Positions 4,871 through 50,463 of a DNA stretch of 64,000 nt are shown piece after piece. The stretch's first letter is position 1, and each line of letters begins with the position of its first letter. The position numbers were made by a program, and so were the translations under genes. This stretch comes from Norana najaformis (taxonomy: Eukaryota; Annelida; Clitellata; Crassiclitellata; Hormogastridae), in NCBI GenBank assembly GCA_964023275.1, contig OZ029914.1, positions 19,372,879 to 19,436,878 on the forward strand, written 5' to 3'. The notes beneath the pieces are model-generated. The model had not been told where the DNA came from and searched no databases. It was given only the letters and a program-made list of their open reading frames with translations.

Positions 4871-4891
4871 TCGGTTTAACCCACACTGAGT

Positions 4892-11500: not shown

Positions 11501-11511
11501 TTACGATACTG

Positions 11512-12501
11512 ATGGGTTCCAAGTTGCTTATGGAACGGATTCTATCGCACTTTCCTGAGAAGCATTTAAAGTATGCTTTTGCATATGGCTCTGGTGTCTT
11601 CCAGCAGCATGGCAATTTTGAGACATCTAAGAATATGGTTGATTTTGTGTTTGCTGTGGACGACCCTGTTCAATGGCACAGCGAAAACATGATTAGAAAT
11701 CGCCACCACTACTCCATCCTCAGCAGACTGGGTCCAAAATACGTCTCTTTCATTCAGGATAAGTATGGTGCGCGGGTTTACTATAACACATTGGTGTCAT
11801 GTGAGGGTCGACTGATCAAGTATGGTGTTATTTCTACTTGCTCCCTAATCAACGATCTGTTGGACTGGGAGACGTTATACATCAGTGGTCGTCTGCATAA
11901 ACCAGTGGCTGAGCTGCTGCATGACCAATCAAATTCGGAGTTATCAAAAGCTCTTGTTACCAATCTTCAGAGTGCCATTCACACCGCATTATTACTACTT
12001 CCTGAGCAGTTTTCGGAAGAGGAGCTGTTTGCCACAATAGCTGGGTTGTCGTATACCGGTGACTTTCGTATGACAATCGGAGAAGACCGAAACAAAGTAA
12101 TCAGCATCGTCCGGCCTAATGTCGAGAACTTTCGGAAGCTCTACGAGTTACACATTGTGAACGGTGAGCACCTGCACTGGAACAAGTCAGGAGGCATCTT
12201 GCAACAAAGCAACGACCCTGCTTCACTTTACCACCACCTCAACCTCCTTCCCAAGTGGCTTATGTTTGCTGTTGTCAACCAGTGCAATTCTGATGGCCGC
12301 CACCGGGACACAGAAGAGGTTCTGAGGAGCCTCGCTGAGGATTCTGAGTGTCGAGAAGTTGTGGAGGGCTGCGTGTCAAGCATTGTTAAATATTCAAGCC
12401 TTACGCAGAGTGCAAAGGGTATCTTGACTGCAGGGTTTCTGAAATCAGTTAAGTACAGTTTAAACAAGCTGAAAAAAATGTTCAAGATAAAGTCAAGTTA
12501 A
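11512..12501 (+). CDS. TAMM41: TAMM41, mitochondrial phosphatidate cytidylyltransferase (CDP-DAG synthase)
   Basis: TAMM41/Tam41 makes CDP-diacylglycerol from phosphatidic acid and CTP on the matrix side of the inner mitochondrial membrane, the first step of cardiolipin synthesis. The 329-residue frame matches the human protein along its whole length. Key blocks are ILSHFPE near residue 10, the nucleotidyltransferase motif AYGSGVFQQ near 25, VDFVFAVDDPVQWHS near 45, GRLIKYGVIS near 100, IAGLSYTGDFRM near 185 and SAKGILTAGFLKSVKYS near the end. Length is normal for the family. Methionine 1 (CTGATGG context, in-frame TAG 30 bp upstream) or methionine 7 could be the start. The coding region is a single uninterrupted exon, whereas the human gene has several introns and the neighbouring genes here are finely split. 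This suggests intron loss or a retrocopy that is still intact. Confidence 0.95.
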   Translation: MGSKLLMERILSHFPEKHLKYAFAYGSGVFQQHGNFETSKNMVDFVFAVDDPVQWHSENMIRNRHHYSILSRLGPKYVSFIQDKYGARVYYNTLVSCEGRLIKYGVISTCSLINDLLDWETLYISGRLHKPVAELLHDQSNSELSKALVTNLQSAIHTALLLLPEQFSEEELFATIAGLSYTGDFRMTIGEDRNKVISIVRPNVENFRKLYELHIVNGEHLHWNKSGGILQQSNDPASLYHHLNLLPKWLMFAVVNQCNSDGRHRDTEEVLRSLAEDSECREVVEGCVSSIVKYSSLTQSAKGILTAGFLKSVKYSLNKLKKMFKIKSS

Positions 12502-17600: not shown

Positions 17601-17898
17601 ATAATAGCAGAACGTATGGCCGAATTGAATAAGCAGTACTGGGAATCAGATAGTATGAATGAGCTTGAGCCAAATTCTTGAATAGACCAAACCGTAAGGA
17701 CGCGTGTGTAAAAGTGATAGACTTGTCTTCACCAGATTTAGCAAGCAGGACCAGGATGAACACAATACAGTACCAAAGCAAACAGCGTAACGAGGCACCC
17801 ATAATACGAGATAGAATTGAAGTTACAAGAAAACCAGAAGCTTGAACAGCTTGAACCATGCAACAAGTAAGAAGACGTGACCTAATTAGAGAAGACAA
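14605..17898 (-). CDS. LINE polyprotein: 2A-like peptide, APE endonuclease, reverse transcriptase
   Basis: The open frame runs 1097 codons; true starts may be the methionines at codons 14 or 33, because codon 1 is not ATG. Residues about 40-53 are strongly hydrophobic. Residues 128-146 form a second hydrophobic run ending in GDVEINPGP, a 2A-like ribosome-skipping motif. The apurinic-type endonuclease follows, with NICSLRSK near 155, LALTETWL near 178, the MGDFNIH motif near 295 and SDHIAISS near 355. The RT has NYRPIST, LDLSAAFDTVDH, GVPQGSVLGP and YADDTQIY, with a C-terminal PKFWNSLP block. No frameshift or internal stop is present, so the copy could encode a working retrotransposition protein. 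Confidence 0.93.
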   Translation of the reverse strand: MSSLIRSRLLTCCMVQAVQASGFLVTSILSRIMGASLRCLLWYCIVFILVLLAKSGEDKSITFTHASLRFGLFKNLAQAHSYYLIPSTAYSIRPYVLLLCNSPNIIFRRGLNVNSCKTSSTTRHGLSMYLFLLLLLAGDVEINPGPARLKNLDIGLLNICSLRSKAAVLHNFLCENSLHILALTETWLQPSDTPGFISDLTPPTFTMLNEPRCSGKGGGLAFLFKSYLPLRKFILPIPTPKSFEALAATLISGNKQVLLVNIYRPPSLSLTDFLDEFQPLLEYLISSPSEIVIMGDFNIHIDTAGHYSSSFLDMLEGFDMKQLVTFPTHNKGHTLDVLITRSDSKSLHSVSPLESYLSDHIAISSKFDFPFKPPSNYKTIKFRPWHKIDLNKLKHDVLTSPLWLSPAQTASELAMQFQSTLSELLDRQIPFRSKRVVERTPQPWFNSAISDARRHRSRLERWWRHSRLPSDLSRFKQQCKLVRKLVSSAKSEYLTNLIAESSTSPKTLWMALNKLLHREKLNSSFGVFCSTQELASKFLTFFADKISGIRLKFSGYLLCDKFLLPSSSPPVLDYFLPTTLAEVRRLIFSSPDKTSLLDTIPTSYLKECFAVLGPTITSIINFSLLEGSFPSGFAHAIVHPLLKKPSLDPSDLSNYRPISTLNFISKILERVVLNRMRAHLSSNPLISPFQSAYRKFHSTESALLAVHNDIMCSMDKGKVTALVLLDLSAAFDTVDHSLLLHRLQHWFGVSGPALHWFATYLSPRTQSVYLNGHYSASASLTCGVPQGSVLGPLLFTLYTTPLGTLLDNHSLGYHFYADDTQIYISFDSLTCHSSVQLLSDAFEELQSWMAANKLLLNPSKTEFLLLGTPQQLKKFEWLKSVKLGDSLIEMTDTARDLGVVFDSTMSLTNYVNGICKSSYMYIRDIRRIRHYVPMSSRISLANALVSSRLDYCNSILVGITKSNMQKLQRVQNSLARAITNTSKYEHITPVLKSLHWLPVQQRICFKLGLTVYKTLNYGQPQYLKSILIPQTYHYSARSSDCLSLVIPWARTVLGKRAFSVAGPKFWNSLPVSVRSAQSLLSFRSQLKTYLFQIAYPP
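17461..17487 (-). other. 2A-like ribosome-skipping peptide in the LINE ORF
   Basis: Codons for GDVEINPGP, preceded by MYLFLLLLLA. The canonical 2A consensus is D-x-E-x-N-P-G-P, with the skip between the last glycine and proline. 2A-like sequences at the N terminus of CR1-type LINE ORFs have been reported in sea urchin and other invertebrates. The preceding leucine run resembles a signal peptide. Confidence 0.88.
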
Positions 17899-17940
17899 GC
17901 GAAGAACATTACATTTACCATGATGTATTAACGTGTTAAG

Positions 17941-18062
17941 TGATTGCGTTTCATGGAAGAGGTTCTGCGAGGACCGTACTTAATATAAAACGTTTTTACT
18001 TTGGGCGGCTTTTAGGTTTTTGTGCAACACTTTTACTCTGCTGCGTCACGTGACTGTAAAAC
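17941..18062 (+). promoter_or_regulatory. Short putative promoter/5' UTR of the SNRNP27-like gene with GTCACGTGAC E-box
   Basis: Only about 120 bp separate the 5' end of the opposing LINE from the start codon at 18063. The stretch holds a TATAAAA at 17984-17990 and a perfect palindrome GTCACGTGAC at 18045-18054, the kind of E-box bound by USF/MITF-type bHLH-ZIP factors. The E-box is only 8 bp from the ATG, so it may lie within the transcribed leader. Confidence 0.4.
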
Positions 18063-32444: not shown

Positions 32445-32730
32445 TAAACTCGAGATTTTTACATCGCCCAATGAAGCTAGGTCGCGAGAACCAGCTTATT
32501 CACTGGCGCTCAGTCAAAACAAATTCAATAGGCAAGAAGGGTAGGCAATCAGATGGCTATGATGGGTGGTGTTTCGAATTGGATTTGCAGGGCATAAGGG
32601 GAGGAAGAGGTATCAGGATTGGATCCGCAGAGCAGGAGAGTTTTCAGTTTTGAGTGGAATACCTGAGCAGAGATTGCAAGGGGTGAAGTGATGGTGAGTG
32701 TGTATGATGGATCAGTTAATTGTTAGCAGC
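32445..32730 (-). mobile_element. LINE 3' fragment, GATTAC-tail family, in receptor 3' flank
   Basis: The minus strand ends in CCTATTGAATTTGTTTTGAC, GCGCCAGTGAATAAGCTGGT, GGGCGATGTAAAAATCTCGAG and a decayed tail. It starts about 30 bp past the receptor stop codon, in the same orientation, so it is probably part of the receptor's 3' UTR. Confidence 0.6.
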
Positions 32731-32762: not shown

Positions 32763-34679
32763 TTACTGCCAGTGATAACCATCATCTATGTCTAGTTTGG
32801 CAGCTTGTTTCTGAAAGAGTTCATTTTCTCCAAAACCTACAACTGATGCACATCCTGTAGTATAACTGCCATAGTCAGGTGCAAATGACTCACCTGGTTT
32901 TAACAAGGCGCTTTCTGCACAAAAGTGGATCACGTGTTCTTGATTATTACGTTCAATGCCACAATTATCTGTGGCTGATGCTTTGCGATCTGTCGGTTGT
33001 ACTATTTGTCCTGAGATGTATCCGTCGTCGTAGTTTTCCACTGTGCTATTTGCTTCTGTCTGGTTTGCAAAAGCATTTATTTTTCCTGTGATGCATCCAT
33101 CATTACTTGTTGAATTAAACTTTGCCCAGTTTTTAGATGCTTTTTCTGGGTCTTCTGTGTGACTTGTAGAAGTTTCACACTGTCGACATGGAGGTAGAAT
33201 ACCATCATCTATGTCTAGTTTGGCAGCTTGTTTCTGAAAGAGTTCATTTTCTCCAAAACCTACAACTGATGCACATCCTGTAGTATAACTGCCATAGTCA
33301 GGTGCAAATGACTCACTTGGTTTTAACAAGGCACTTTCTGCACAAAAATGGGTCACGTGTTCTTGATTATTACGTTCAGTGCCACAATTATCTGTGGCTG
33401 ATGCTTTGCGATCTGTCGGTTGTACTATTTGTCCTGAGATGTATCCGTCGTCGTAGTTTTCCACTGTGCTATTTGCTTCTGTCTGGTTTGCAAAAGCATT
33501 TATTTTTCCTGTGATGCATCCATCATTACTTGTTGAATTAAACTTTGCCCAGTTTTTAGATGCTTTTTCTGGGTCTTCTGTGTGACTTGTAGAAGTTTCA
33601 CACTGTCGACATGGAGGTAGAATACCATCATCTATGTCTAGTTTGGCAGCTTGTTTCTGAAAGAGTTCATTTTCTTCAAAACCTACAACTGATGCACATC
33701 CTGTAGTATAACTGCCGTAGTCAGGTGCAAATGACTCACTTGGTTTTAACAAGGCGCTTTCTGCACAAAAGTGGATCACGTGTTCTTGATTATTACATTC
33801 AGTGCCACAATTATCTGTGGCTGATGCTTTGTGATCTGTCGGTTGTACTATTTGTCCTGAGATGTATCCGTCGTCGTAGTTTTCCACTGTGCTATTTGCT
33901 TCTGTCTGGTTTGCAAAAGCATTTATTTTTCCTGTGATGCATCCATCATTACTTGTTGAATTAAAATTTGCCCAGTTTTTAGATGCTTTTTCTGGGTCTT
34001 CTGTGTGACTTGTAGAAGTTTCACACTGTCGACATGGAGGTAGAATGGAATGTTGTATTTTAGGTGAAATAGAGCTATCACAGCCAGTTTTTAAAGGGTT
34101 GCTATCCTTTGCAAGAGTTATTTGGTTAGAAACACCATAGTTCTCTGGTTTGCACAATGTTCTTGCGACTTCTACTCTTTGTAGTCTGCTATCTAAATTG
34201 TTCATATGTGTGGCTGTTCTAGGCTGCGTGTCTTTAACATCAGTAGCACAGACCTCGAGGGGTTTCTTCTGGCTTTCAGAATCACTGATGTTCGTATTTT
34301 TAATTGCAGTTCGTTCTGAATTGGTCTCATGGATGACTTTTGGCAGAATATGTGTAGAATAGTTATTGATCACTTTGAAAGAAATGTCCTCTGAATCATT
34401 TATTTGCACGGGTTTGACTTTCTTTTGAGTTGGTGAACACTGTGAATGCCTGCAACTACCCTTTTCATCTGTGTCAGTCAGTTGACCTGTACCATGTGGT
34501 CTTTTGGGTGAAAGCTGTATTCTTGCTGCTTCATTAGGTAGTGCAGGTAAGACTGACTCTGGCCTGTCTTGGTTTTGTGGTGTTGGAATCCTGTCTGAAG
34601 ATTCTGCACCTTGAGAAGATTTGTCTTCTGGTCGATCTGATCTTGGATATGCGTCGCTTTTCTGTGGGCGTTCATGAAT
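32763..34679 (-). CDS. Receptor exon 17: long tail with three 141-residue repeats
   Basis: 638 codons plus stop. The first part is polar, proline/serine-rich and shows no known domain. Then three tandem units follow, and the chain ends GYHWQ and stop. YHWQ fits the YxxQ pattern that recruits STAT3 in gp130 and LEPR. Each unit has four tyrosines, in NYDDGYISGQ and DYGSYTTG. It is a single large terminal exon, as is common for cytokine receptor tails. Confidence 0.85.
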   Translation of the reverse strand: MHERPQKSDAYPRSDRPEDKSSQGAESSDRIPTPQNQDRPESVLPALPNEAARIQLSPKRPHGTGQLTDTDEKGSCRHSQCSPTQKKVKPVQINDSEDISFKVINNYSTHILPKVIHETNSERTAIKNTNISDSESQKKPLEVCATDVKDTQPRTATHMNNLDSRLQRVEVARTLCKPENYGVSNQITLAKDSNPLKTGCDSSISPKIQHSILPPCRQCETSTSHTEDPEKASKNWANFNSTSNDGCITGKINAFANQTEANSTVENYDDGYISGQIVQPTDHKASATDNCGTECNNQEHVIHFCAESALLKPSESFAPDYGSYTTGCASVVGFEENELFQKQAAKLDIDDGILPPCRQCETSTSHTEDPEKASKNWAKFNSTSNDGCITGKINAFANQTEANSTVENYDDGYISGQIVQPTDRKASATDNCGTERNNQEHVTHFCAESALLKPSESFAPDYGSYTTGCASVVGFGENELFQKQAAKLDIDDGILPPCRQCETSTSHTEDPEKASKNWAKFNSTSNDGCITGKINAFANQTEANSTVENYDDGYISGQIVQPTDRKASATDNCGIERNNQEHVIHFCAESALLKPGESFAPDYGSYTTGCASVVGFGENELFQKQAAKLDIDDGYHWQ

Positions 34680-37600
34680 CTGATAGTTAAGTAAAAGCAA
34701 TTCTTAGGTTAATGTAATTCTTATATTAATGTAAAAGAAACTTCACAGTTTGAGAACAATATAATATTGATTGCGGACGCTCAGAGGCGCCGACACTGGA
34801 TTTCTGTGGCTTTCTGGAAAGTTTAGGCCAATAGCCCAAGTTTAAGGCGCCCTTAAGTAATAAATAATTCGACGCTGGTATGAAGCAGGTTTCTCTGCAT
34901 ACAGGAGATCGTGGGAAGAGGTCTTTAGCATGATAGCTATTAAGTGATGCGGAAGTGTCGACGATCTTACGAAGTACAGTCTGGACGAGTTCTTTCTTTA
35001 ATTCTGCCACTGCTGAAAATTTAAACAAGGACAGAGATACAGATACAAGACCGCTTGTATAATGAAACCTTACCTTGACTTGCGAGTGAGTTATGTTAGC
35101 AGTTACAACCGCTGATATTTGATTTAGCAACTGAGGAGTTGGGACAGAAGAGAGGATCATCTCGCTGTTGCCGTCGTCGTCGTTTTTATCGTCCGAGGCT
35201 CTGCTTCGCTGACTTCCTGAGAGATCATGATAGAATTCAGGTCTTCCACTTGTCTGCTCCAACTCATAACTACTAATCAGCGGAATGGCTTCCTCGTCAG
35301 GTGGCTTCAAGATGATGTGTTCAGCATGCCCGCCGACATATGACGACGACAACTGCGAAGCCGAAGTTTCCTGAGGGTCTATAACCTGTCGATGTCAAAC
35401 AGTAGGCCTACAATTATTACTACATTATGAACTTTTTAAACTAAGTGGATTTGGAATATGTAAAAAAATTTCGTCACCAAATTAGCCTATGCACTACATA
35501 CGTGGTAATTTAGCTGATCAAAATAGGTGCTACTTAAGGTAAGCAGAGAATTTACGTCAAGCTGTCACGAATTATTACCTAAGGGCTATCTATGGTCAGT
35601 GGTTCCGAAAGAAAGCATCAAACGAGAACATGAGATCGTTGAATGAGAAAGCCAGATTCGCTCGTCACGGACAACGAGTTGAGTATTCATATCTAGGAAC
35701 CCCATGAATGCAGATTCTTCGCCTGTCTTTGATCATGCATGGCGCTTGCCCAGGCACACAGGTGTTGCATTTATCGAGTTCTGCAGAAACTGATTTGCTA
35801 GCATCTATGTTTACACTTTCACAACAATGGTTGAGTATTTGACATGTGCTACCGATAGATGACAGGTAAGTCACCGTTGAACGTCATCAGCACGTCATCA
35901 GAACGTCATCAGTCATGAACTGGTTAACCCATGCTCCGGGAGCCTTAATGAGTTGGGTGAGATCAGCCGTGTAGAGAAAGCCTGTGTAGACAAGCAGCTG
36001 AGGACTGAGTCCTGTGGGATACTGAACTGATACTGATACTCAAGCCATGTGATCAATACCTATTTGTTTATGGACACCATCATCATCCAGAAAGCTGCAA
36101 ACCGAGGCAAAGGGTGAATCACTGAGTCCATAGTAGATGCCAAGGAGTGTGTAAGTAGGATACCAGGAAATCACTTAACAATGTGTCAAACACCTTGCTC
36201 ACAACCAAATGAGGTCAAGTCGGGAGTGGCAATAATCATAGGCTGTAATTAAGATTAATTGCAGTGCACACTCACAAAAGACATGGATAGGCCCTACATT
36301 TCAGCCTACGGAAAAGGCCGGGGCTAACGGCGAGTAGAGAAAAGTTCAGAGTTGGGGTCAAACTCAAGGCAAGTCTCAGATTATATTGCCGAATTGGTCC
36401 CTCGATCCTCAAATGAGTGAAACGTTGATGGATAGACATCCGATGCCGTATCTGTGTTAGCAAAAGGATGAAGGATAGAGGTTTTTAGACAAGGATAGAG
36501 TGTTAAGGAAAGAATATAGTTTTTAGATATTTACCAGAATAGAAAATGTTGAATTATGAACCTGAATTGGTGGAGCATACCTCGTCAATGGAAACAAAAG
36601 GTTCGCCTGGAGACAAGACTTCCGTTTCTAGACATTCCAACGCATGACGTCGTTTCCTGTCAGCAATAATTGGTAGAATGTGAACTCCATGCGGTTCACT
36701 ATCGCATAAGTCATTTACAGGTTTGTCTTCAAATTCCTCTTCAAATTCTTTCTTCTCGTTGCTTTTATCGCTCGCCAAGCACGGGATTTTTGGAATGCTT
36801 TCGCTGGCTGGAAGATCTGTCTCCCCGTCGGAGATTTCAATCACTGCGGTATATGGGCCGATGACCACAAACGGTGGATGTACATTGGCTCCCTCGAATG
36901 GAATCATTTGGTTATCATGACGGGCTGGCTCTGTACCCTGGTAATATGTACACGTACATCAATGGCTAAGTATGCAATGTATACAATGTAAGTATGCATG
37001 CCATGTATGTATGGTATGTATGTATGTATGTTCTGATGTGTGTATGCAATGTACACATGTAATGTATGCATGCCATGTATGTAATGTATGTATGGTATGT
37101 ATGTATGTTCTGATGTGTGTATGCAATGTACACATGTAATGTATGCATATAATGTTTGCATGTAATTTACAGATGTATGTAATACTATGTATAGGCCCTA
37201 TGTATTTATGTAGGTAATATGTGGGTATGTATGCATGCATTTGCCACAGACTGCCGCAGTTTCGGCAGCCCAGTGTTATTATTACTTTTGTTTCTGGAAA
37301 CAGCACAAACGCCACGACAGGTTGCATTCAGAATGTTCTGTTTTACTGAAATTTGTCCAGTGATATGACTTCTCTGGGTGTGAGCGTTCAAATGGACTAC
37401 TGCAACGCTATCACTGCAGGCCTGCCAAAAGTTTTGATTACGTCAGATTCAGTCCTCTCTGAACTGCTCTGTCCGGGCCGTCGCCAACCCACCAGAATTC
37501 AAGCTATGTGCACTGGATCATGGTCCGTTTTGGACAGGATTATATTCAAGATTATTCTCTGTTTTTCCGCTTATCTTACGATGCGCTCTTCTCTCTGTCT

Positions 37601-37939: not shown

Positions 37940-40900
37940 GCAGTCTGTCTGGATGAGTGTAACGTATAGCCTGTATCTATCCTTCTGAGTGTTTGTATGA
38001 AAGTCTGTCGGACAGGTTTCTTTGTCTGCAACTTAATTCTTCCCGATCGTGCAGTGCCGATCAGGCAGGAGTTGGACATAAATTTAGGGCTATATTTCTG
38101 TAGAGTTCATCAAGGAGGTCATATTGAAAACTTACGGGAGGAGGTTTTATAATAATTTTCTTGCAGCACTCCATATCTCTGCAAGAGAAAACAGCAGCAG
38201 TTCATTAATGCGGATAAACGAATCTCAACACGGCTTATTTAAAAACAAGTCGTTTGTATGTGTGTAGGCCTTTACGCATATGGCTATTCATATAGAGCCT
38301 TTTAGAACCTCATAGAAGCAAGCGCTAACACCTGGCAATCAAACAGATCTAAAGAGGTGCGATTTAATGTGAGCTGAACAGTTTTCTTCAGCTGTCTCTG
38401 TCGTGTCTGAGCAATATTCTAATTTTTTAACGAGGTAACAGAATATTAGACGCCGGATATCCTGTTGATATCCTGTATCGGGATTTTTAGAAGGCCTCTG
38501 ATAAGATTCAACACCAGCGTTTGCTCGAAAAGATTGTCAAAGGGTGCATGAAATTCGTGGAAGCTGTTTTTGAATGGATCAGAAATTGGCTCAGAGGGAA
38601 AAAGCAGAGAGCGTTACTTAAAAAGGAGTAGCATCTAGCTGAAGAGATGTGCTTAGCGCTGTCCAACAGGGCTCTGATTTTGGCCCATTTTTATTTAGAA
38701 TTTTTTGACATTTACCAAAGTGTTCAGAGCCAAATTCTGAAATTTGCTGCGATACAAAGGTGGTAAAATCCTGTCTGTGGAGGACGCTGTCAACTTGCTA
38801 AAAAACCTGCACGTGCACAATATCAATTTTTTATCAATCACCGAGATTCTAACCTCGAAAGCACTGGTGAAAGTTCAACAAGTTAGCAGTCCAGCGGAAC
38901 TAGGCGACACCCTGATCCATTGAATCCGCTGCCTCCCCATTTCTCTCAGCTTAAACACAATCCACCCTAACAGCTCCTTTCCCCTTCTCTCTCTGGCCTT
39001 CTGGCAACCGGACTTGGTTCTTGACGTGGCATCTTTTAACAACCCCACTGACTTGACGCAGCGCTCGTGAATAAGCTGCTTAGCTTTTAGGTAGGGCTTT
39101 AGAAATTTCGAGTTTACGATTACGACAGCGTGGATTAATAACTTTAACATCATGACTGAACACCTGCGACGCACTGAACCGTAACGCCACACTAAGTAGT
39201 TATTGCCAAGGGCGGTCGTTAGTCTTGTATTAGTTAGTTAATTTGCATCTGTAATCCGTTAAGAATACCTTAATGAACAGTAAGAACAGTAAGAATACCT
39301 TACTGGACAGGGAGTGGTACTTACCCACATTTAATAAGTAAGACGAGAAGAAGAATCAAACCCGCAACACTGACGATGACGCAGACGACAATTCCACCAA
39401 CAACACCAGGAGCCAACACTAGAAAATCAATGGCAGTCATTTAACAACTATTATCATTATTTTTATTATTATTGCTATTATTAGTATTATTACTTTATTA
39501 TTATTATTATTATTATTATTTTTCCCCAGGTAGGTATAATCCCTATAAGGTGGTGAAAAAATTAGTCCGGAGACATTATAATTGTTATTATTGTTATATA
39601 TCAGCTATTATTATTGTTATTATTATTGTTATTATTATTGTTATTATTATTGTTATTATTATTGTTATTATTATTATTATAATAACAAAAACAACAATAA
39701 CAATATGAAATGTTACAATTTGCACACAGCGTTATAACGACGTTGCCATGATGGTCACGTTCGCAGACTTCAGTGAGGATGAGGACTGTTAGTTCCAGTT
39801 ACATTTCTTGCTCTTGAGGGATCATATGTACACTGGGTAAAAAACTGATACAATAATATAAATACCGGATGATACGCAGACGTTCCAGATACCGTTAATA
39901 GTCTCCGGACAATGTTTTATCTCCTCACGTATTGCACTTAACTCAGGAAAAATAATAAGGCTATTATTAAGATTTATAGAGGCGATGTGTGCCCCGCCCC
40001 TACCCCTGGTTGACATGCTCATGACAATTGGTCACCTAATCTATTGCTGCCTCGTGCTTCCTGGGCTGCATTTGTTCTAGCCATCTCCCTCGATGAAGAA
40101 CGGGATCGACCACGCTCTGCTGATTCACTTTCGATCCATATCTGGTATTTGGAATTCTCCTCAAGACCTGCGACTTCATGCTGCAACGACGAAGGCGGTA
40201 ACTTCGCTTCTAAAATTACAACACCCACAACTGTTGGATTGAAGCTGTAAACGTTGAGGTTCAAACAGTTAATAATAGAAGTTTATCGACCAGCTGTTAA
40301 CCTTTCAGCTGTTTTTCAGCTGTTAATCTGTCTGCTGTTATTCAGCTGTTAACCTGCCTGCTGCTATTCAGCTGTTAACCTGCTTGCTGTTATTCAGCTG
40401 TTAACCTGCTAGCCAAACTTCTGCTGAAAGGACAGGCTTATTAACTGTACGCTTAGTTATCTAGTTATCTATTAACCTTTATAAATTACTTAAAACTAGG
40501 CCTATATATTTATTTGAAGGTTCTGTTTGTGTAACAATATCTATTGCAGTACAATGAAAAATAACTAACACATATCTAACACATGAAAATATCTAACACA
40601 TTATCGAGTGACTCATTGATTCCGTTAAACATTTACTGATTTAGTAATCTATTGGATGAGGTGTAGATTGTTTAAATCGATATAATCAAGAGACCTTCTC
40701 ATTGATTTCTCAGAAGCTTTGCCTACGTTGGTCCCACTTGCTGGAATCGTCTCCCTCGATTATTGCGACTTGACCTCCTTTCTCTTCCCCTCTCAGGCGC
40801 CTGAAGACTGTACTGTTCAACAGTGATTTTACTTTTTCGGGTCGGAAGCACCTCTGTTGAGTTTATCCTCTAAGAGGCGCTTTATAAATCTCAAACTACA

Positions 40901-43900
40901 ATTACAATTGGTTTTACTTGTATAACTCACCTCTTAATTCAGAACAGTTGTCATTTTCGTAGCGGCAGTAGAAAAGTAAGTAAGATGTGATGTGTTTCTG
41001 TTCTTGACACTGACTTGGGATCCAAGTAACCAGGAGCCGATCAGTCGAGTTGATAGGTGCATTGACTTCAGTGATCCGTGGAGGATCCAAGGCTAAGAAG
41101 AAAAGCAGTTAACATGGCCAACATGTATAGCATAATTTATGTTAGGCCAATATAACATTACATAATTACATAACAGAACGGGTAACAGATTTACTCCTTT
41201 GCTCGTTACTAACACTCATAACTAACTAGCAATTAAACGCATCGTTAATTGCTAAACGTCCCCGCAATTTTCGCTAATACTTTTCGTCAACATCCAGGTG
41301 ACAAAGTCGCAGTCGAATTAGCTACAGCAGACCTAGGCCTACTTATCTGCAGCCTAGAACTCGTCATCGTTTAGCGGATTCCATAAATGTAATACTGATA
41401 TTATGGTCTATGTTTGTCTGTTTGTTGGTAACGCTTGTAATACTGATATTATGGTCTATGTTTTTCTGTTGGTAACGCTTGTAATACTGATATTATGGTC
41501 TATATTTGTCTGTTTGTTGGTAACGCTTGTAATACTGATATTATGGTCTATGTTTGTCTGTTGGTAACGCTTGTAATACTGATATTATGGTCTATATTTG
41601 TCTGTTTGTTGGTAACGCTCGCAATACTGATATCATGGTCATCACTTATTCGCTGAATGCATTCGCAGCTTGGTTTACCGAGACAGAGAGGCAGCATCAC
41701 TAAGATGAGGGAAAGACAGGGACAGAATAAGTAACGAGTTTCATTTCCCATGATTACAAAAAACTTGTTTCAATTCTATAACTAGTCATTTTCCTACCTT
41801 TTTCCAAGTCATAGATGCATTTAAACCAATTAATTCCGTTCGTTCTTCCCTTTTTCGAATTTACAGCCAGTCCTATTCGGTATGAATGGCAGCGACTGGC
41901 CAATGAGAGTTCGAATTTTCCATCCGTAGGTGGTGGATCTGACCATTCAACTTCATCCTGTATCATTGAAATCGAAATTACTAACCATTACTGTATATAG
42001 TTATAAATATACATGACTTTAAAAAATTGAAATAGAGAAGAAAACTCAACGTTTCAAAAAAATAAGAATCACCACAAAATTAGCATTATTGCCGCCGACA
42101 TCACATTCTTAATCACAACCATAATCATGAGCAAACTTGTAATCGTAATCAGAATCATAATCATCCCCGCTACCACTGCCATCGAGGTCACCCTCATCGC
42201 AGTCAATGGTGGCATCATTTATGTCACAATCACCTTATTAATCATCATCGTCGTCGTTATCATGATATTTAAATCATCATCATCATTACCACCACCACCA
42301 TCATCATCATCTTCACGGTCATTATCAACCTAACGTCGTGAGAGACGTCGCCACTCTGAAGAAGACCATCGCTACTACCACCAACTACACCTTCCACCCA
42401 GCTGCACGCATCGTCCTGCTGCCTTTCCTTGTGTCTGAATCCTCTGTCACTTTGTTGGCCAGCTCCTCTCAAACCAGTCGACCGGAAATTGAAAGAAGCC
42501 TTGGAAGCCACAACACGCACCTGGCAGAGATGATCGGCGTCAGAATGTCTTTGGCACCAGTAGAGAACCACCTGACTGATGCTGCGATTCCACTGGACTG
42601 TCACCTTGGATTGAAAACCCTTCGCAGTCGCTTGTAACAACTCAAGAGTTTCTTCTGAAATCCGACAGTAGGCTCTTCAATTATTATACACCGCACAGCA
42701 ATCTGTTTTGGGGCAGATCTTCAAAAATTCTCTCCATCTTACGAAATTTTAATTTTATTGGGAGATTTCTATGCGGAATTTCTCTGTACAATGCACTTCA
42801 CTGTTTCACTGGCGACATCATAATACATATAATAGGCCTACCTGCTTTTCAAAAATTTGAAATTATGTACGCATAATTTATATGTATATGTTTGTACAGG
42901 TATATATTTAGAGCCCATGCTTGTACGTACAGTATGTACTTACTACGTAAGTACGTACGTACGTACATATGTATGTATGTATTTATGTACGTATGTATGT
43001 ATGTATGTATGTATGTATGACTGTATGTATGCTTGTATGTATGTATGTATGTCTGTATGTATGTATGAATGTATGTATGCATGTATACATGTACGTACGT
43101 ACATAAACCAGACTACGCAGGCCTACATAATTATAATAAAACCTTGACATAGTTTGTCATCCTAAGGCAGTAAGACGAGGATGTGACTGTTCTATTTCTC
43201 CATATTGGGAACGGATCTAGTGCCACTGATGTACATGTGTTGATGTATGAATTTCTACATAAGCCAAGGCACTGACCCTGATTCATATTTGATTCCCAGG
43301 TAGGAACAGCTATTGACGTCTGTGGCTGGGAAGAAAATCCCAGATCGTTTTTCGCGAAGACTTTGACGACGAATGCGTCGTTGCTAAGAACAACGTCAGC
43401 AGAAGTTTCGTTGAGTTCATAAGAAGAGCTTTCGCCAATCATCGAGTTAATCTGGACATCGTAAGAAAAGCCAGGACCACACTCGTTGCTCTTTGGGATC
43501 GCCTGGAAAAAGTGCGCATCCAATGTCCCAGCAGTTTCAACAATGAACATATCGATCGCATCAGAGTGAGTTGTAGTAAGTGGGTCACGGTGACGAAGTG
43601 AGAGACTGACTGACTGACTGACTGACTAAGTGAGAGACTGACTGACTGACTAAGTGAGAGACTGACTGACTGACTGACTGACTGACTGACTGACTGACTG
43701 ACTGACTGACTGACTGACTGACTGACTGACTGACTGACTGACTGACTGTGAGTCGATTCCTAAATCAGTTGAGTTGCTGCTGACCTTCCAGTAGATGGTG
43801 ACATTTCGATGCGTCTGATTTGAGGATCTGACGAAGAATCCACTGACAGAGACTTTTGGTTGACTACAGGGAACTGAAACAGAATCATCATCCTCATTAT

Positions 43901-44801: not shown

Positions 44802-47452
44802 CATACATAAATATACATACATACATGCATACATACATACATACATACATACATACTTAGATGCTGATGAACATATAATGATATAAACGGCCATACAGAC
44901 ATACAGACAGACATACCTATAGACAAACAAATGACAGATGCTTTACCGGAGGGTGAGGTACGGAAGGTGGCTGTGAGCTCTTTGCTCCAGAGCTGTCCAG
45001 CCGGAGTGGCAGCCTGGATGCTGAGTAGGTAGAGAGTGTATGGACGAAGCGAACCAAGGACAACGTTTGGCACTTGAGAGAAGATCTCCAACCGTCCAAT
45101 CTTCAAAGTTCAGACAAAGCATTGAAAATTTATACGAAACTATTACGACGGTAATCTCGGTGGCTACAACTACAACGATAATGACGATGACGGTCTAAAA
45201 TAAGTGTATATATGTGTGTGTGTGTGTAGATATGTAAAAAGCTATACATTTATATGCAGCCTTTTATAGAACCATCAAAGCAAATCTAACTATCTTAATC
45301 ATAATCGTAGACTCGATATTTCTACAGCTCCCAACGAAAGCTCAGTCAGGGAACCAGCATTTACACAGGCGCTCCGTCAAAACAAAATCGTTATACAAGG
45401 GATCAGAAGTGGTTCCAATCCTAGATCCAAGAGTAGGCATTGAGACGCCTACAGTGGATGGTGTTTGGAATTGGAACCCAAGCCAGATAAAGTGGAGAAG
45501 AGGAATCAAGAGAGGATCTGTGTAAGAGGAATGTTTTTAGTTTTGAATGAAAGACCTGGGCAAGGGCTGAAGTGCTGGTGAGTTCGTATGATGGGTCAGA
45601 TATTTGTCGTAATTCTGGCAGGAGTTTATTCCAGAGTGGTGGGAGCTACATGATGTCATATTTCTTGAAGAACGACAACGTCGGATATAGGCTGAGGATA
45701 CTCGTACAGCTGTAGAAGGTGTTTGCCGGTTGGCAGTCGCAGTGATGAGAAGACAGGTCAGTGACCGACATTCCCATCCGCGGTCGAAAGCCTCATTCAG
45801 AGTCTTTGGCTCTTACTACGCTGAACATACAGAAGGCGTAAACTTGGTTTTAGCCCGTGGCTCCCGTACCAAGAGAGTAAAACGGACATCGTCGGTCTGA
45901 ATTTTAAGAACAGGACTTGGGAACTTGCCCTGGAAGTGGCTGAACATGCTATAGATGCCTGGAAAATCCAGCCATGCAATCAACTATTGCCTGTAGGCTA
46001 TGCAATAGAAAGTTTTTAGACAAGGTTATACGAAGTTCAACCACTCAAAACAAACTTGAAAATCTACATCTGTAATCTTTCATCAGCCGGTTGCAACTTG
46101 GACTCATATTTGTGTAATGGTAAATAAAAAATATGGACACAATGAAAATTAATGGGATTTAATTTCGCCCGCGTTTCTGTGGGGTTAAATCCGAACCCAC
46201 TAGGGGTCGATTTAATCACGGCTGGAAGTTTACCTTTGACCTGGGGTCGAGGTCGAATTCTCATCCTCCTGCAAATCTGACCCTCTATAACAAATCTTTC
46301 AACTACAAACCTAATGTGACAAAAGTGATGATGATGACGATAATGACTACGAAAAGCGACGAGTGAATGACTCAGACGGTGATAACAACGATGATTATGA
46401 GGATGGTGGCGGTGGCGATGATGTTGTTGATGATAATGATTTTGATGATGATGATGTTGATGATGATGTTTGTTGTTGATGATGATGATGATGACTATGT
46501 GAATTAGAGTGACACCATGCTTTCAATTCTCTCGAAACGTGACTTCTAATTGATTTTAGCAGAACTCAAATTATTTATTGATTCCTTCATTTATTTGTAT
46601 ACATCGTCTTGCCATTCCGAACGGTAGCGGACTTTGTAGAGGAGAGGAGCTGTGTAGCTTGGATCGACGAAAGGGGAGAACCACAGAAGATGGACATCAG
46701 GCACCGTCTCCACGATGCTCAGGTTGAACGGTGGATCCAACAGAACTATTAAATAAATGAATATATTCAGCTAGAACATCTCAGAGCCTTTGTAAGACTA
46801 TGTTATGTTACGTTCCTTTTATGCTACGTTATCTTATGTGACGTTATGTTGTGCTATTCGACAATTCAGTCCATTGTGGTATAACACTGAGATCTGGATC
46901 TATTCAGTCGCAGTCCATTCAATTGAAAGCAATCTTTGCATCGGTTTCTAGGATAACATTCAAGGTAAGTAGTCGACAAAGTCGGTGCGAAAGTCTGTAT
47001 GCAGTACGGTTGCAGAGGGAGACAAAACAAAATTGGACCTAAGAAAGTGCGTCTAAACTGTAAGAGAAAGGTTAAAATCCCAGCCAGCACGATAATTTCC
47101 GTCCTAATTTTGGGTCGCGAATCCTCAAATTGACATATATCACGAAAATTCCGCGTCGATTGAGTCATGATTAACTGCAAAACCTCAATTCCACACTACA
47201 ATAACCCCCTCTCCCCTATATATATATATGTGTGTGTGTATGCCTGCTTGTGTGGCTAAGACACGCCTGGATCTTTGTATTAAAATCTAAGATCTATGTA
47301 TTATAAATGTACTAAATAGACTAGGGAGCATGGACAGACGTAAATGTACATTTACATTTACGTCTGTCCATGCTCCCTGGTCCATTTAGTACATTTATAC
47401 GGGGCATTTGGTCGGTGGTCCATTTATTGCAGTTAGTGAAGGGGAGAGAGAG

Positions 47453-47498
<46 letters not shown>

Positions 47499-50463
47499 AG
47501 AGCAACAGTGGATTTTTCCCCAGCAAGCGAGTCGATAGATGTTCTGCTCGGAATAAGCTAATAATCACAACTATTACAACACATTGACGTTAGATTCTAC
47601 TGCTTACCCTTGTCTTCGACAATGAAGCAGAACGGATCGGATAGAACGGATTTGTTGGGTAGCACTTCGTTCGAAGCGTTAACTCGAACGCACGTCCTTC
47701 GTCCAAACAGCCATCGTAGTAGATTATAGTCGTCGTTATGATGACTGTCTTTGAGCAGCCAGCCACAGGTTTCGTTACCGGCGTTATTGCACATCTGGTG
47801 CCACTGAGAAAAGTTCCTGTATTTTACAAACTGTTGTTGTTTGAACTTGCCTTATGTCATCAGAGGTATGGCATAGGGTCAAACTGTCTTGAACTTGTAA
47901 ACGTGTGTGATCAGTGAAGTGTGATCGAACGAAAGAGGCGTAGAGTGAGAAGAAGGAGTAAGAGTCGGGGATTAGACATTGCAAAAACGAGAACAGAGGA
48001 TTAAAGTTATAGCTGTAACTATGAACTGATGAGATTTAGATTGCAAAGTTGGAAATAAAGTTGTTTTAATAAAGAGTAAGACATGGTTTTGGACTCGTCT
48101 TAGCTCTGTACACATCGAGTAACTGAACTATACAAGCACTAATTCGATCGATTGTGTAAGTGTAATCGATAAGTGTAATTAATATAGCGTCGCTTCAAGA
48201 GCACTAATCAGATACGCTTAGTAGAGTAGATCGGTCAGTCAACCGTGAATATCTGCCATAGTTAAGATGTTAAGAAGCCGATATCAATTGCTGGTCGTGT
48301 TTGTAACGTAGGCCGAGGTAGTGATGGTCGAGGTGGCATGTTAAGCGATTGCTTGCGGCGGCGGTTGGGTTGATGAGGCTGGCTGTCGCTCAGTAGGCAA
48401 CTAGCAACAAATCAATCTAGGATTGGCTGACCAAGCACTGTGGCTTGCCGATCGATTCATTTTCCATCAATACTGGTGCTGTTTTATTACATAATGACGC
48501 TAGAAAAGTTATTTATGCAATCTTAGATTCCTCGCCGAAATATGCGCTGTATAGTTTTTCTGCTGTGAGAGGCATTGATTGATAGAGATGATGTCAGAGT
48601 AACATTTATCTTCAGAGGCAGGTCACAGGCGAGTTTGTTAACTAATCCTCAGTGAGGAAATCTGAATTCAGCTTCTCACTCGTGTGACTGAAGAGAGAGC
48701 GACTGATGAAGAAATCTCGGGTTCCTGAAGTAACCATGTTTTAACTGCTTCCCTTGCGAGGGACGCCACCAACATTGTGCCCGATTCCAGTTGTAAATTA
48801 CGCAGCTGCGGACCACCGGCTTAAGAGGCCGTCCTTCAAATATCAAACAATACGATGTAGGCCTACTTATTTGGTTTCCTATACTTGCACGGCAGTTACT
48901 AGTTAAAGACATGCAATAATCGATGGCGCTTGACAAATGTGCATTCATTCGTGGAATTCTGAGCAAAAGTGGTTAATGAGCAAGGCCTCTGCGGAGCAGT
49001 AATCAGTAGCCATGACTACACTTAGCCTATACCAATCTCTCTTATGTCTCTCTGTGTGTCTCTGCCTCGCTATGCCTCTCTCTGTCTCTGTGTCTGTCTC
49101 TATCTTTCTCTATGATGCCAAACTCAGCTGGGCGAAGCCGTGTCAACGACGCGACGATAAACTTTTCTGTCCTGAGCCTTCTTCCAAGCTGTGTGCTCTA
49201 GGCCGTATGGCCCCAGGTCGGCCGTGTGGTTTTACTTCAACCTTCTTGAATCCATACCAGTCGGTAGTCTAAAATTCTAGCCTAAAACTATTATTAACGA
49301 TCGCCAAAGCCGCAGCACTGGAACTTCACCAGATGTTACCTGCAATTCAACTCTGTTTGTGAAGAAGGACGATGTCTCTGTATTGCGGTGGAGACTATGG
49401 ATTTAATCGATGAATTAGGATGAATTAGGTCTGCAAATCATACGAAACTGGTAAGCAACACACGTATAGGTGACCTAGTACGGCAAGATAAGGTAAGGCT
49501 AGGCTAGATAGCCAATCGTCCATTTATATACTGCATGTCCCATCAACAACAATCCTCAGAGCTTTCTTCTTGAGATTAAAGGATTAAAGGACAGACAGTT
49601 AAGAAGAGTAATCTGAAAACAGAACAACCCAATGCTTCTCATAAAATTACAAATGATGCAACTTACTGAGAACATAAGAACTCCAGCTTCTGACAAATGA
49701 ATTGTTGTCACATAGGCTTCGATTATTTCCCTTGTGAATCGATACAAGACAGGCAAAGGCGCCACTTTCTTTGCGCGTTACATTCGTCAGACGCAGTTGT
49801 GCAGTATTTTGGCTCAGTACGAATACGTTGTTCCGTACTGTAAATGTGGTTTTCTTGCGCTTAAACTTAATGTCAGCGACGTTGAAGCAACCGACTGCAG
49901 TCGACGGCAAAGTGCAGTTGAGAATAAGAGTCTCTCCTTCTTCGATGTAAATGCTGCCAGCATGGTCTATGGACCTAATATTCGCTGACAAACACAAAGC
50001 TCAGTCATCAGTCAACAACTGAATAGGCATACGTTAGTAAATTCATTGATTTTTACCCGAGTTAGAGGTGATCCCTTAGGACTAAAAATGTCCGTAGAAA
50101 CTAATAAAATTGCCTTAATAACTGAATATTTGATTAGTCATTAATTTAAGGTAACAAGCTAGGCCTACACAATGTAATGGCGACATGAAAGGAATGCAGA
50201 TTGAAACAATGATTTAAGCACAAACTCCAGATGGACCTATAAACGGACGAAAACACAGATGCAATGAGCAACATAGATGCATACAGAAAGGCATACAGAC
50301 AGTCAAATAAAGCGACTGAAAGACAGATGAGCGAAAGAGAGACTGAGAGACTGAATAGCAAATTCCTGTTTGGCTTACTGTTTGCTAAGAGACCAGAGGC
50401 ATAACTCGGAGACAGAGTGATGAACACAGCGCATATCAAGAGTAGAATAGTCCGAGTTGTCAT
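32763..50463 (-). CDS. gp130-like class I cytokine receptor (17 exons)
   Basis: This is a single-pass receptor of the gp130/LIFR/G-CSFR group, which signals through JAK and STAT proteins. Exons: 50379-50463, 49667-49984, 48680-48833, 47608-47816, 46603-46745, 44947-45100, 43785-43873, 43277-about 43560, 42521-42654, 41798-41957, 40931-41092, 40036-40209, 39325-39418, 38136-38178, 36581-36937, 35074-35370 and 32763-34679. Splice phases agree at every junction, except that the acceptor of exon 8 is unresolved. The product is about 1590 residues: signal peptide, Ig domain, two-domain cytokine-binding module, three more fibronectin III domains, one membrane helix and a tail of about 870 residues. 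Phases 1-2-1-0-1 across the cytokine module match the pattern I know for vertebrate class I receptors. The order Ig plus five fibronectin III domains is that of gp130. No kinase domain is present, as expected. Confidence 0.88.
32778..34046 (-). repeat. 3 x 423-bp coding tandem repeat in the receptor tail
   Basis: Unit boundaries (ILPPCRQCETS start) fall at 34046, 33623 and 33200, exactly 423 bp apart, and the array spans 1269 bp. Units differ at only about three to five residues each (for instance PTDHK versus PTDRK and FEENE versus FGENE). The unit length is a multiple of three, so the frame is kept. Confidence 0.95.
35074..35370 (-). CDS. Receptor exon 16: cytoplasmic segment
   Basis: 99 codons, phase 0 at both ends, low complexity and rich in S, D and N. 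It contains SSSYVGGHAEH, ISSYELEQ and EFYHDLSG, three further tyrosines. The CCCTCAG acceptor keeps phase 0; the donor is GTAAGG. Confidence 0.72.
36581..36937 (-). CDS. Receptor exon 15: cytoplasmic juxtamembrane region
   Basis: 119 codons, phase 0 at both ends. It starts with GTEPARHDNQMIPFEGANVH and has an acidic EKKEFEEEFEDKP segment. Y in VIGPYTAVIE is the first cytoplasmic tyrosine. No catalytic domain. Confidence 0.75.
36965..37220. repeat. GTAT/ATGT-rich simple repeat with about 75-bp higher-order units
   Basis: GTATGTATGTTCTGATGTG and TGCAATGTACACATGTAATG recur twice in the same order, in intron 14 of the receptor, directly before the exon 15 acceptor. Confidence 0.75.
37590..37655. 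repeat. TC-rich and (CAGA)n simple repeat
   Basis: TCTCTCTG/TCTC runs followed by CAGACAGACAGACAGACAG. Intron 14 of the receptor. Confidence 0.8.
37859..37935. repeat. (AT)n microsatellite
   Basis: About 77 bp of perfect AT dinucleotide in receptor intron 14. Confidence 0.95.
38136..38178 (-). CDS. Receptor exon 14: 43-bp micro-exon with box 1-like segment
   Basis: Encodes MECCKKIIIKPPP directly after the membrane helix. Together with the next exon (GTEPA) it places a hydrophobic stretch before prolines 20-25 residues inside the membrane, where class I receptors have the JAK-binding box 1. The tryptophan of vertebrate box 1 is missing. CTTGCAG acceptor and GTAAGT donor are both strong. Confidence 0.75.
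38450..38830 (+). mobile_element. Decayed LINE reverse transcriptase fragment
   Basis: The plus strand reads VDILYRDF, KASDKIQHQRLLEKIVKG and FEWIRNWLRGKKQRALL, matching the common RT block YLDFQKAFDKVPHQRLL with several changes and stops. It is a CR1/Jockey-type RT of a third family, in receptor intron 13 on the opposite strand. Confidence 0.7.
38882..39127 (+). mobile_element. LINE 3' fragment, GATTAC-tail subfamily
   Basis: GCTGCCTCCCCATTTCTCTC, GACTTGACGCAGCGCTCGTG, AATAAGCTG and TTTCGAGTTTACGATTACGA; near-identical to 57165-57382 and a subfamily of the other stubs. Confidence 0.7.
39325..39418 (-). CDS. Receptor exon 13: transmembrane helix
   Basis: The 31 residues begin VLAPGVVGGIVVCVIV and continue with SVAGLILLLVLLIKCG. 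About 24 hydrophobic residues precede the lysine, so this is one membrane span with the tail inside. CTAG acceptor in phase 1, GTAAGT donor in phase 2. Confidence 0.88.
39466..39685. repeat. (TTA)n / (TTATTG)n simple repeats
   Basis: TTATTATTATTATTATTATT at about 39495-39520 and TTATTATTGTTATTATTA-type units at 39595-39680. Receptor intron 12, next to the membrane exon. Confidence 0.85.
40036..41092 (-). CDS. Receptor exons 11-12: membrane-proximal fibronectin III domain 5
   Basis: Exon 11 (40931-41092) reads LDPPRITEV, RLLVTWIPSQC and SYLLFYCRYENDNC; exon 12 (40036-40209) reads LQHEVAGLEENSKYQIWIES. The internal intron is phase 1. The join to the membrane exon uses the GTGACC donor; the stalk contains RSRSSSREMARTNAAQEARG and is basic and low in hydrophobic residues. 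Confidence 0.8.
40289..40415. repeat. 26-bp minisatellite, about five units
   Basis: CAGCTGTTAA starts at 40291, 40317, 40343, 40369 and 40395, an exact 26-bp period. Each unit has CAGCTG and most have GTTAAC. It lies in intron 11 about 80 bp upstream (minus strand) of receptor exon 12. Confidence 0.85.
40726..40912 (+). mobile_element. LINE 3' fragment, ATTACA-tail family
   Basis: GAAGCTTTGCCTACGTTGGT and CCCACTTGCTGGAATCGTCT translate to the FAYVGPTCWNRLP block of an RT C-terminus. The 3' UTR ends AGGCGCTTTATAAATCTCAA and ACAATTACAATT. A second copy is at 54765-54958. Confidence 0.75.
41389..41650. repeat. Minisatellite of alternating 48- and 44-bp units
   Basis: GTAATACTGATATTATGG starts at 41389, 41437, 41481, 41529 and 41573, with a variant (GCAATACTGATATCATGG) at 41621; spacings are 48, 44, 48, 44, 48. 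It lies in receptor intron 10. Confidence 0.9.
41798..42654 (-). CDS. Receptor exons 9-10: fibronectin III domain 4
   Basis: Exon 9 (42521-42654) reads KVTVQWNRS and VVLYWCQRHSDADHLCQ; exon 10 (41798-41957) reads DEVEWSDPPPTDGKF and RCHSYRIGLAVNSKKGRTNG. The spacing W, then W-C, then C, then W, then C-Y follows the gp130 domain that contains EWC...C..W...C-Y-L. This is the strongest sign of gp130-subfamily identity rather than a generic fibronectin III protein. Confidence 0.85.
42240..42320. repeat. CAT/ATC-rich simple repeat
   Basis: ATCATCATC and ACCACCACC runs flank the end of receptor intron 9; they create spurious open frames next to exon 9. Confidence 0.7.
42950..43105. repeat. (GTAT)n/(GTAC)n microsatellite
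   Basis: Tandem GTATGTATGTATGTAT with GTACGTACGTAC edges, in receptor intron 8. Confidence 0.9.
43277..43873 (-). CDS. Receptor exons 7-8: fibronectin III domain 3, split by a (GACT)n array
   Basis: Exon 7 (43785-43873) encodes PKVSVSGFF and NVTIYWK. Exon 8 encodes IDMFIVETAG, FSYDVQINSM and VVKVFAKNDLGFSSQP, the rest of a fibronectin III fold, and ends at a GTCAGT donor in phase 1. The donor of exon 7 (GTCAGC) is weak. The tetranucleotide array at 43604-43748 lies between them, and the acceptor of exon 8 is uncertain, somewhere in 43550-43620. Confidence 0.7.
43604..43748. repeat. (GACT)n microsatellite between receptor exons 7 and 8
   Basis: About 145 bp of GACTGACT with two AAGTGAGAGACT interruptions. 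It sits inside fibronectin III domain 3 of the receptor gene. Confidence 0.95.
43911..44042. repeat. (CAC)n microsatellite
   Basis: About 44 perfect CAC triplets in receptor intron 6; the long poly-His, poly-Thr and poly-Val frames through it are spurious. Confidence 0.95.
44651..44862. repeat. (ATAC)n microsatellite
   Basis: ACATACATACATACATAC with variant TAGATAC and TATATAC units, in receptor intron 6. Confidence 0.93.
44947..46745 (-). CDS. Receptor exons 5-6: cytokine-binding domain 2
   Basis: Exon 5 (46603-46745) reads LDPPFNLSIVE, HLLWFSP and YKVRYRSEWQDD, matching the PPHNLSV, LTW and YNIQYR blocks of gp130. Exon 6 (44947-45100) reads LEIFSQVPNVVLGSLRPYTL and AGQLWSKEL. The WSxWS box of the family is reduced to a single WS here. 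The phase 0 intron falls after the C' strand, as in vertebrates. Confidence 0.85.
45292..45760 (-). mobile_element. LINE 3' fragment, GATTAC-tail family
   Basis: The minus strand has the RT C-terminal remnant, GATTTTGTTTTGACGGAGCG, GGGAGCTGTAGAAATATCGA and an ACGATTATGATTA tail. It lies in receptor intron 5 in gene orientation. Confidence 0.7.
46320..46500. repeat. GAT-rich simple repeat
   Basis: GATGATGATGATGATG and GATGACGATAATGAC runs, in receptor intron 5. Confidence 0.75.
47303..47398. repeat. 96-bp near-perfect palindrome
   Basis: Left arm ends GGAGCATGGACAGACGTAAA at the centre and the right arm repeats it in reverse complement (TTTACGTCTGTCCATGCTCC). The arms are 48 bp with about three mismatches and almost no spacer. 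It lies in receptor intron 4. Confidence 0.93.
47443..47494. repeat. (GA)n microsatellite
   Basis: About 50 bp of GAGAGAGA with one GAGC break, in receptor intron 4. Confidence 0.9.
47608..48833 (-). CDS. Receptor exons 3-4: cytokine-binding domain 1
   Basis: Exon 3 (48680-48833) gives PVVRSCVIYNWNRAQCWWRP, the C-x9-C-x-W signature of class I cytokine receptor domain 1. Exon 4 (47608-47816) supplies the second cysteine pair (WHQMC and NETCGW), then RTCVRVNASNEV and DPFCFIVED, like the gp130 stretch that ends the same domain. The internal intron is phase 2. Sequons NFS, NET, NAS and NKS are present. Confidence 0.85.
48150..48235 (-). mobile_element. LINE 3' terminal fragment
   Basis: The minus strand reads GTGCTCTTGAAGCGACGCTA, then TTAATTACACTTATCGATTACAC, related to the 3' ends at 25262 and 31375. 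Receptor intron 3. Confidence 0.4.
49667..49984 (-). CDS. Receptor exon 2: N-terminal Ig domain
   Basis: 106 codons, phase 1 to phase 1. The B-strand cysteine lies in EGETLILNC, and the F-strand cysteine in TRKESGAFACLVS with the usual L-x-x-x-E-S-G-x-x-x-C layout. gp130 and LIFR have an Ig-like domain at the same place. Sequons NCT, NVT, NRS and NNS suggest glycosylation. Confidence 0.85.
50379..50463 (-). CDS. Receptor exon 1: start and signal peptide
   Basis: ATG at 50463 begins MTTRTILLLICAVFITLS, a basic N terminus followed by a hydrophobic core, with likely cleavage after the PSYAS region. The exon ends in phase 1 before a GTAAGC donor. No upstream 5' UTR exon is evident. Confidence 0.82.

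Follow-up and report, generated by a model that had tools for sequence, protein, structure and literature searches.

A recent in-frame triplication in the cytoplasmic tail of a predicted gp130-class receptor of Norana najaformis, and what it may add to receptor control

What might a cytokine receptor gain when one segment of its cytoplasmic tail is present three times? The question is raised by a 64,000-nucleotide stretch of the genome of the annelid Norana najaformis (GenBank assembly GCA_964023275.1, contig OZ029914.1; C2:19372879-19436878), called the window below, in which the last exon of a predicted receptor gene contains three near-identical units. A preliminary description of this DNA had proposed that the units multiply tyrosine sites in a receptor tail and that copy number could tune docking-site number. 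As judged from the sequence, the triplication of a 423-bp segment is recent, in frame and within the last exon. Its function is unproven; in the best reading it increases the dose of a motif for turnover or docking and makes the tether to a single terminal STAT site longer. Genome searches covered the assembly of 608,420,607 bp in 17 contigs, and positions given without a contig name are those of the window.

Tandem Repeats Finder (TRF) run on the window reported an array with a period of 423, 3.0 copies, 98% matches, 0% indels and a score of 2468 (see the table). The array is on the minus strand and sits entirely within a 646-codon open frame, and 423 is 3 x 141. Exactly three units in an unbroken frame with few differences had been described at first sight, and this holds, with 10 variable sites among the 423. 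NYDDGYISGQ and DYGSYTTG are likewise present in every unit, and the last unit is followed by YHWQ and the stop codon. Compared in pairs, the units have 8, 7 and 5 differences over the 423 sites (1.2 to 1.9% divergence). They are 98% alike, in keeping with the recent expansion that the preliminary description had named beside gene conversion. The comparison of synonymous and nonsynonymous changes that it had suggested gave 3 against 7, approximately the neutral mix (about 0.71 to 0.74 nonsynonymous and 0.21 to 0.24 synonymous at kappa 1 to 2). The NG86 dN/dS values were 0.015/0.034 for units 1 and 2, 0.018/0.011 for units 1 and 3, and 0.009/0.022 for units 2 and 3. Because the 7:3 counts match the neutral mix, unit divergence neither demonstrates nor excludes selection, which is unproven. 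A DNA search of the assembly found no second copy, the one match being the array itself. A protein search at E up to 1 gave two matches, the array and a weak one (E 0.0099). The latter lies in a 2423-codon frame and was rejected as a second tail copy, since by eye it is a low-complexity chance match. A base unique to unit 3 creates the splice-donor consensus CAG/GTGAGT at 32893, where units 1 and 2 have CAA/GTGAGT. Splicing inside a unit was considered but not adopted.

The frame with the array was joined to a 16-exon gene model, built by hand from open frames and splice sites alone. The model spans 50463-32763 on the minus strand and encodes 1543 amino acids; the joined frame is open and all exon phases fit. 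It is least secure at the start of exon 3 and at the donor of exon 4 (GAT/gtatac). The modelled domain order is signal peptide, Ig-like D1, D2-D3, D4-D6, transmembrane (TM) helix, juxtamembrane IIIKPPP, YTAVIEI, exon 15 and the array exon. In a phmmer search of solved structures (PDB), gp130 came first (E 2.3e-12; E 6.6e-13 for the D2-D6 part), and the two proteins align colinearly from the end of D2 to a point within D5. Pfam placed two fn3 stretches over the cutoff, with Ig_2 under it. The model thus has the plan of Ig, CHD and three fn3 domains before the TM helix, with a domain count made partly by eye. Paired cysteines and C-x-W are visible in the first CHD domain as C-x7-C-x-W, in the exon whose start is uncertain. 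LWSKEL stands opposite the WSDWS stretch of gp130 and is half a WSXWS motif. IIIKPPPGTEP and YTAVIEI are candidates for box 1 and box 2 in the expected place, with no sequence match to gp130. Taken together, there is good sequence support for a gp130-class receptor (class I cytokine receptor, gp130 group), and the first description of a receptor tail stands on the phmmer match and the gene model.

The comparison with gp130/IL6ST shows what is shared and what is not. The Ig-CHD-three fn3-TM order, a C-terminal GYxxQ and a YTAV of the Y[ST]xV type are common to both. However, the end of gp130 has at least two YxxQ (YLPQ and YMPQ) against one here, only half of WSXWS is present in this receptor, and the tails are unalignable; the tail and the unit found no gp130 match at E up to 10. 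A resemblance of DDGILP to a stretch of gp130 was discarded as a product of a junction between units. No array of 141-residue units is known to us from gp130. Among public proteins, 5816 candidates gave none at E <= 0.01, in a database whose animal share was not established. Excerpts from two papers describe invertebrate gp130/IL6R-like receptors with an Ig-CHD-fn3 plan (PMC1963337, PMC13203501). An excerpt on Drosophila Domeless treats YxxQ as a STAT-binding motif; the motif is common to Domeless, the Ciona gp130-like receptor and the receptor described here, and the excerpt mentions no tail array (PMC2914635). Among the papers listed in literature searches, no title or opening of an abstract described tandem units in the tail of a cytokine receptor, which is not proof of absence.

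Which motifs, then, does the array multiply? The modelled cytoplasmic part has 875 residues and a single YxxQ, namely YHWQ, its last four residues, outside the unit. Shuffled versions of such a tail often contain a YxxQ (P 0.43). However, the gp130 chain 8qy4_C also ends in GYxxQ (GYMPQ, residue 917 of 917), and YHWQ is therefore a credible STAT site. The terminal GYxxQ common to this receptor and gp130 suggests that the STAT site may have been C-terminal early in the family. Thus the reading of YHWQ as a STAT site survives, but its multiplication by the array does not, because each unit has zero YxxQ and the single one follows the last unit. A scan of the unit for YxxQ, YxxM, YxN, Yxx[ILV] and NPxY found none of them. 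The tyrosines that are amplified stand in YDDG, YISG, YGSY and YTTG. They fit no scanned SH2-type pattern, so tuning of docking-site number by copy number, excluded for YxxQ, would be possible only with a different partner. A dileucine in the unit, ESALL, was weighed as an internalisation signal and set aside ([DE]x2-3L[LI]; P 0.09 in the shuffled unit).

Just beyond the stop codon, the 3' untranslated region (UTR) holds a 5'-truncated copy of an abundant element resembling a long interspersed nuclear element (LINE). The idea that YHWQ and the stop codon are by-products of this element was rejected. Forty matches were scored among 7131 candidates, one of them the locus itself, and the other 39 start at query 65-121, at or below window position 32726 and short of the stop.

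The word within the unit that recurs elsewhere is DDGYxSG. The receptor ectodomain found 22 matches in the genome: 13 at its own locus, four in a cluster on contig C6 (24 to 25% alike, best E 2.0e-12), four Ig-region matches on C12 and one on C4. The cluster (C6:4930927-4974582, 70 kb read) contains three receptor frames without introns, 1346, 1348 and 1018 codons long, and a fourth copy that is split in two (741 and 330 codons). A protein from the cluster used as query gave 12 matches, six within it and six elsewhere at E 4.6e-7 or weaker. These paralogs have an ectodomain homologous to that of the array receptor, NWSEW and a TM helix, but they lack introns and the array, and the three tails scanned lack YxxQ. 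The two long copies, paralogs A and B, are 92% alike, and their tails contain DDGYYSG and end in SILPPCV; unit 1 with its preceding residue reads SILPPC. DDGY..G was named by the preliminary description before the paralogs were compared, and its presence in the tail of paralog A has a P of 4.75e-4 (200,000 shuffles). It lies 86 residues from the C terminus in paralog A and 88 in the array receptor with one unit. A 6-of-7 gapped word in common with the array receptor occurred in 0.02 of 5000 shuffles of paralog A. The last 150 residues of the two proteins align only via SILPPC (34 of 500 shuffles reach the score). The tail of paralog C has no DDGY. On these sequences, a DDGYxSG core is common to divergent paralogs.

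Of the proposal that the unit itself grew from a shorter DDGYxxG element, the core is borne out by the paralogs in so far as the same word recurs there. The evidence from internal echoes is mixed. The best ungapped self-match in the unit (NDGCITGKI/DDGYISGQI, score 27) was attained by 151 of 500 shuffles. Three [ND]DG words per unit occurred in 0.0002 of 20,000 shuffles, a count picked after they had been seen. DDGILPP, which had been taken for an internal echo, is no independent one but the duplication junction, where DDG at the end of one unit meets ILPP at the start of the next.

We suggest, with a probability of roughly one in three, that the array increases the dose of a beta-TrCP-type turnover site, DDGYIS, with the STAT site kept single. 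Each unit would add one DDGYIS acting as a negative-control site of the form D-[S/D/E]-G-hydrophobic-x-[S/T], and phosphorylation of the tyrosine within the site might gate it. Three units would then shorten the lifetime of the receptor additively. The single terminal YHWQ would remain the STAT-docking site, moved 282 residues further from the membrane. Motif counts were pooled over the tails of the array receptor with one unit and of paralogs A and C; B, which nearly duplicates A, was omitted, and the scan did not extend to the split fourth copy. In these three tails the pattern D[DSE]G.{2,3}[ST] has six sites (1, 3 and 2, respectively), with 0.5 expected and none of 5000 shuffles reaching this number. 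The beta-TrCP D domain has two loci in the genome. There is precedent in IL-10R1, where, according to an excerpt of that study, two DSG motifs (one of them DSGFGS) bind beta-TrCP and additively shorten receptor life (PMC3210801). Like the tail described here, that of IL-10R1 is a cytokine receptor tail with several elements of the D-S-G type. However, IL-10R1 is a class II receptor with two separate motifs that form no tandem array, and here Asp replaces the first Ser. An acidic variant, DDGFVD, is functional in CDC25B, as stated in part of another paper (PMC9606124).

Several points weigh against a turnover role. In the one-unit tail of the array receptor alone, neither the pattern above (P 0.15) nor its form with a hydrophobic residue after the Gly (P 0.02) was counted as rare. 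The strict DSGxxS is absent from the array-receptor tail, and the pattern had been widened to acidic residues. Taken whole, the tails of the array receptor and of paralog A are unalignable, their score being attained by 258 of 300 shuffles, and the changes among units are in a near neutral ratio. The excerpt on IL-10R1 also reports that the ancestors of class II receptors in Ciona and amphioxus show no apparent DSG motif (PMC3210801). Furthermore, sequence cannot separate a degron from a tyrosine docking motif, as the same sites fit both.

Those same sites might instead dock phosphotyrosine-binding partners, and we consider this possible, if somewhat less probable than turnover. JAK would phosphorylate the tyrosine of DDGYISG (and those of YDDG, YGSY and YTTG), each unit would recruit one more SH2 protein, such as a STAT5/6-like STAT or a phosphatase, and copy number would set signal gain. 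[DE][DES]GY has two sites in the one-unit tail (P 0.0004) and four in paralog A (0 of 5000 shuffles); pooled over the three tails, the six sites compare with 0.09 expected (0 of 5000 shuffles). The Gly-Tyr of the terminal STAT site of gp130 is of the same kind, and JAK and STAT loci exist in the genome. A JAK locus on C5 has FERM_F2 (PF18377) over the cutoff (E 5.4e-5), and neighbouring frames are, by eye, pieces of a kinase and a pseudokinase in which HRDLATRN and RDYYK can be read. A JAK search of the genome with PF17887 gave no match, its controls being equally silent. STAT_bind (PF02864) has four matches, two on C6, where one locus is STAT5/6-like by eye, and one each on C3 and C14. However, the amplified tyrosines fit none of the SH2-type patterns scanned, and position Y+3 is not constant among the six sites, with G and Q in the array receptor against A, N, G and G in A. 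Paralog C lacks [DE][DES]GY altogether, and this pattern was widened after paralog A had been seen. We slightly prefer turnover over docking because the turnover pattern covers all three tails and has direct precedent. The main effect of the array may also be to lengthen the flexible tether that joins the JAK-binding boxes to the only YxxQ, which is C-terminal as in gp130. A tether is compatible with the other readings, and our probabilities therefore need not sum to one. As a role in itself it appears unlikely to us, being indistinguishable here from the others, and lengthening a tail needs no repeat.

A recent and neutral expansion is nearly as probable as each functional reading taken singly. 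Unequal exchange or template switching would have produced it in frame by chance, with little effect in a disordered tail. The near neutral ratio of changes fits this, as do exactly 3.0 copies, array edges at which no microhomology was found, and a unit composition that the charge-hydropathy line assigns to disorder (0.415 against 0.439). However, the amplified core word is common to divergent paralogs at a near-equal distance from the C terminus, and none of the seven replacement changes falls in DDGYISG or DYGSYTTG, although ten sites give little power either way. There remains the assembly itself, in which haplotype joining or misplaced reads could have added units. The unit divergence of 1.2 to 1.9% is within what alleles of outbred invertebrates can show. 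Such an origin is improbable, the least probable of the explanations weighed here. All three units are distinct, and units 2 and 3 agree against unit 1 at five sites; the frame is exact; the flanks are unique in the DNA search; and the locus is 19.4 Mb inside a 51.8-Mb contig.

If the array raises motif dose, it may alter the duration of receptor signalling or receptor survival. The tails of cytokine receptors are disordered and difficult to compare, and a natural one-to-three dosage series of a defined segment would make turnover and docking measurable against motif number. For the gp130-like receptors of Norana najaformis, the DDGYxSG core is a candidate for a conserved motif of the tail. 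A more far-reaching version of the turnover proposal is a long shot in our estimate: a degron array gated by tyrosine and variable in copy number, in which DDGYIS would recruit beta-TrCP or be blocked by JAK phosphorylation. The number of units would then set receptor lifetime and cytokine sensitivity, and differences in that number would lead to differences between individuals in both.

Table. Window positions of the array, its motifs and the exons of the receptor gene model
Feature	Position	Strand	Basis
Array of three 423-bp units	32778..34046	-	TRF; single locus in genome
Unit 1 (first in reading direction)	33624..34046	-	unit comparison
Unit 2	33201..33623	-	unit comparison
Unit 3	32778..33200	-	unit comparison
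DDGYISG, unit 1	33855..33875	-	sequence, motif scan
DDGYISG, unit 2	33432..33452	-	sequence, motif scan
DDGYISG, unit 3	33009..33029	-	sequence, motif scan
YHWQ, only YxxQ of modelled cytoplasmic part, C-terminal	32766..32777	-	motif scan
Stop codon TAA	32763..32765	-	gene model
Exon 1, start codon and signal peptide	50379..50463	-	gene model; signal peptide by eye
Exon 2, Ig-like D1	49667..49984	-	gene model; Ig_2 PF13895 E 7.2e-4, below curated cutoff
Exon 3, D2 with C-x7-C-x-W, 5' end uncertain	47608..47850	-	gene model
Exon 4, D3a, weak donor site	46603..46745	-	gene model; gp130 alignment
Exon 5, D3b with half WSXWS (LWSKEL)	44947..45100	-	gene model; gp130 alignment
Exon 6, D4a	43785..43873	-	gene model; gp130 alignment
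Exon 7, D4b	43277..43502	-	gene model; gp130 alignment
Exon 8, D5a	42521..42654	-	gene model; gp130 alignment
Exon 9, D5b	41798..41957	-	gene model; gp130 alignment
Exon 10, fn3 D6a	40931..41092	-	gene model; fn3
Exon 11, fn3 D6b	40036..40230	-	gene model; fn3 PF00041
Exon 12, putative transmembrane helix	39325..39418	-	gene model; by eye
Exon 13, juxtamembrane, box-1-like IIIKPPP	38136..38178	-	gene model; box by eye and recall
Exon 14, cytoplasmic, box-2-like YTAVIEI	36581..36937	-	gene model; box by eye and recall
Exon 15, cytoplasmic	35074..35385	-	gene model
Exon 16, last exon, contains array	32763..34679	-	gene model
3' fragment of repeated LINE-like element, 3' UTR, ends about 36-39 bp from stop codon	32439..32724	-	genome search

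Some observations concern the relatives of the receptor and the rest of the DNA. The C6 cluster is perhaps a tandem-amplified retrocopy, and it adjoins a frame that by eye is TRP-channel-like. On C12, four Ig-region matches lie in C12:15975883-16173826. By eye, genes there resemble short Ig-CHD receptors; the one read has a TM helix and no long tail in the stretch read, most of the region being unread. The contig C15 has four COX1 matches, each interrupted by in-frame stops when read in the standard code and decayed when read in mitochondrial codes, among them the decayed nuclear copies at C15:412069-412726 and 570464-571281. Within the window, 11488-12501 (plus strand) is a single-exon gene for a Tam41/Mmp37 mitochondrial phosphatidate cytidylyltransferase (E 9.6e-115). 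Two long frames of retrotransposons without long terminal repeats, at 14605-17979 (minus strand) and 4880-7231 (plus strand), contain RVT_1, the former also an endonuclease. The frame at 14605-17979 contains GDVEINPGP, which we take to be a 2A-like peptide.
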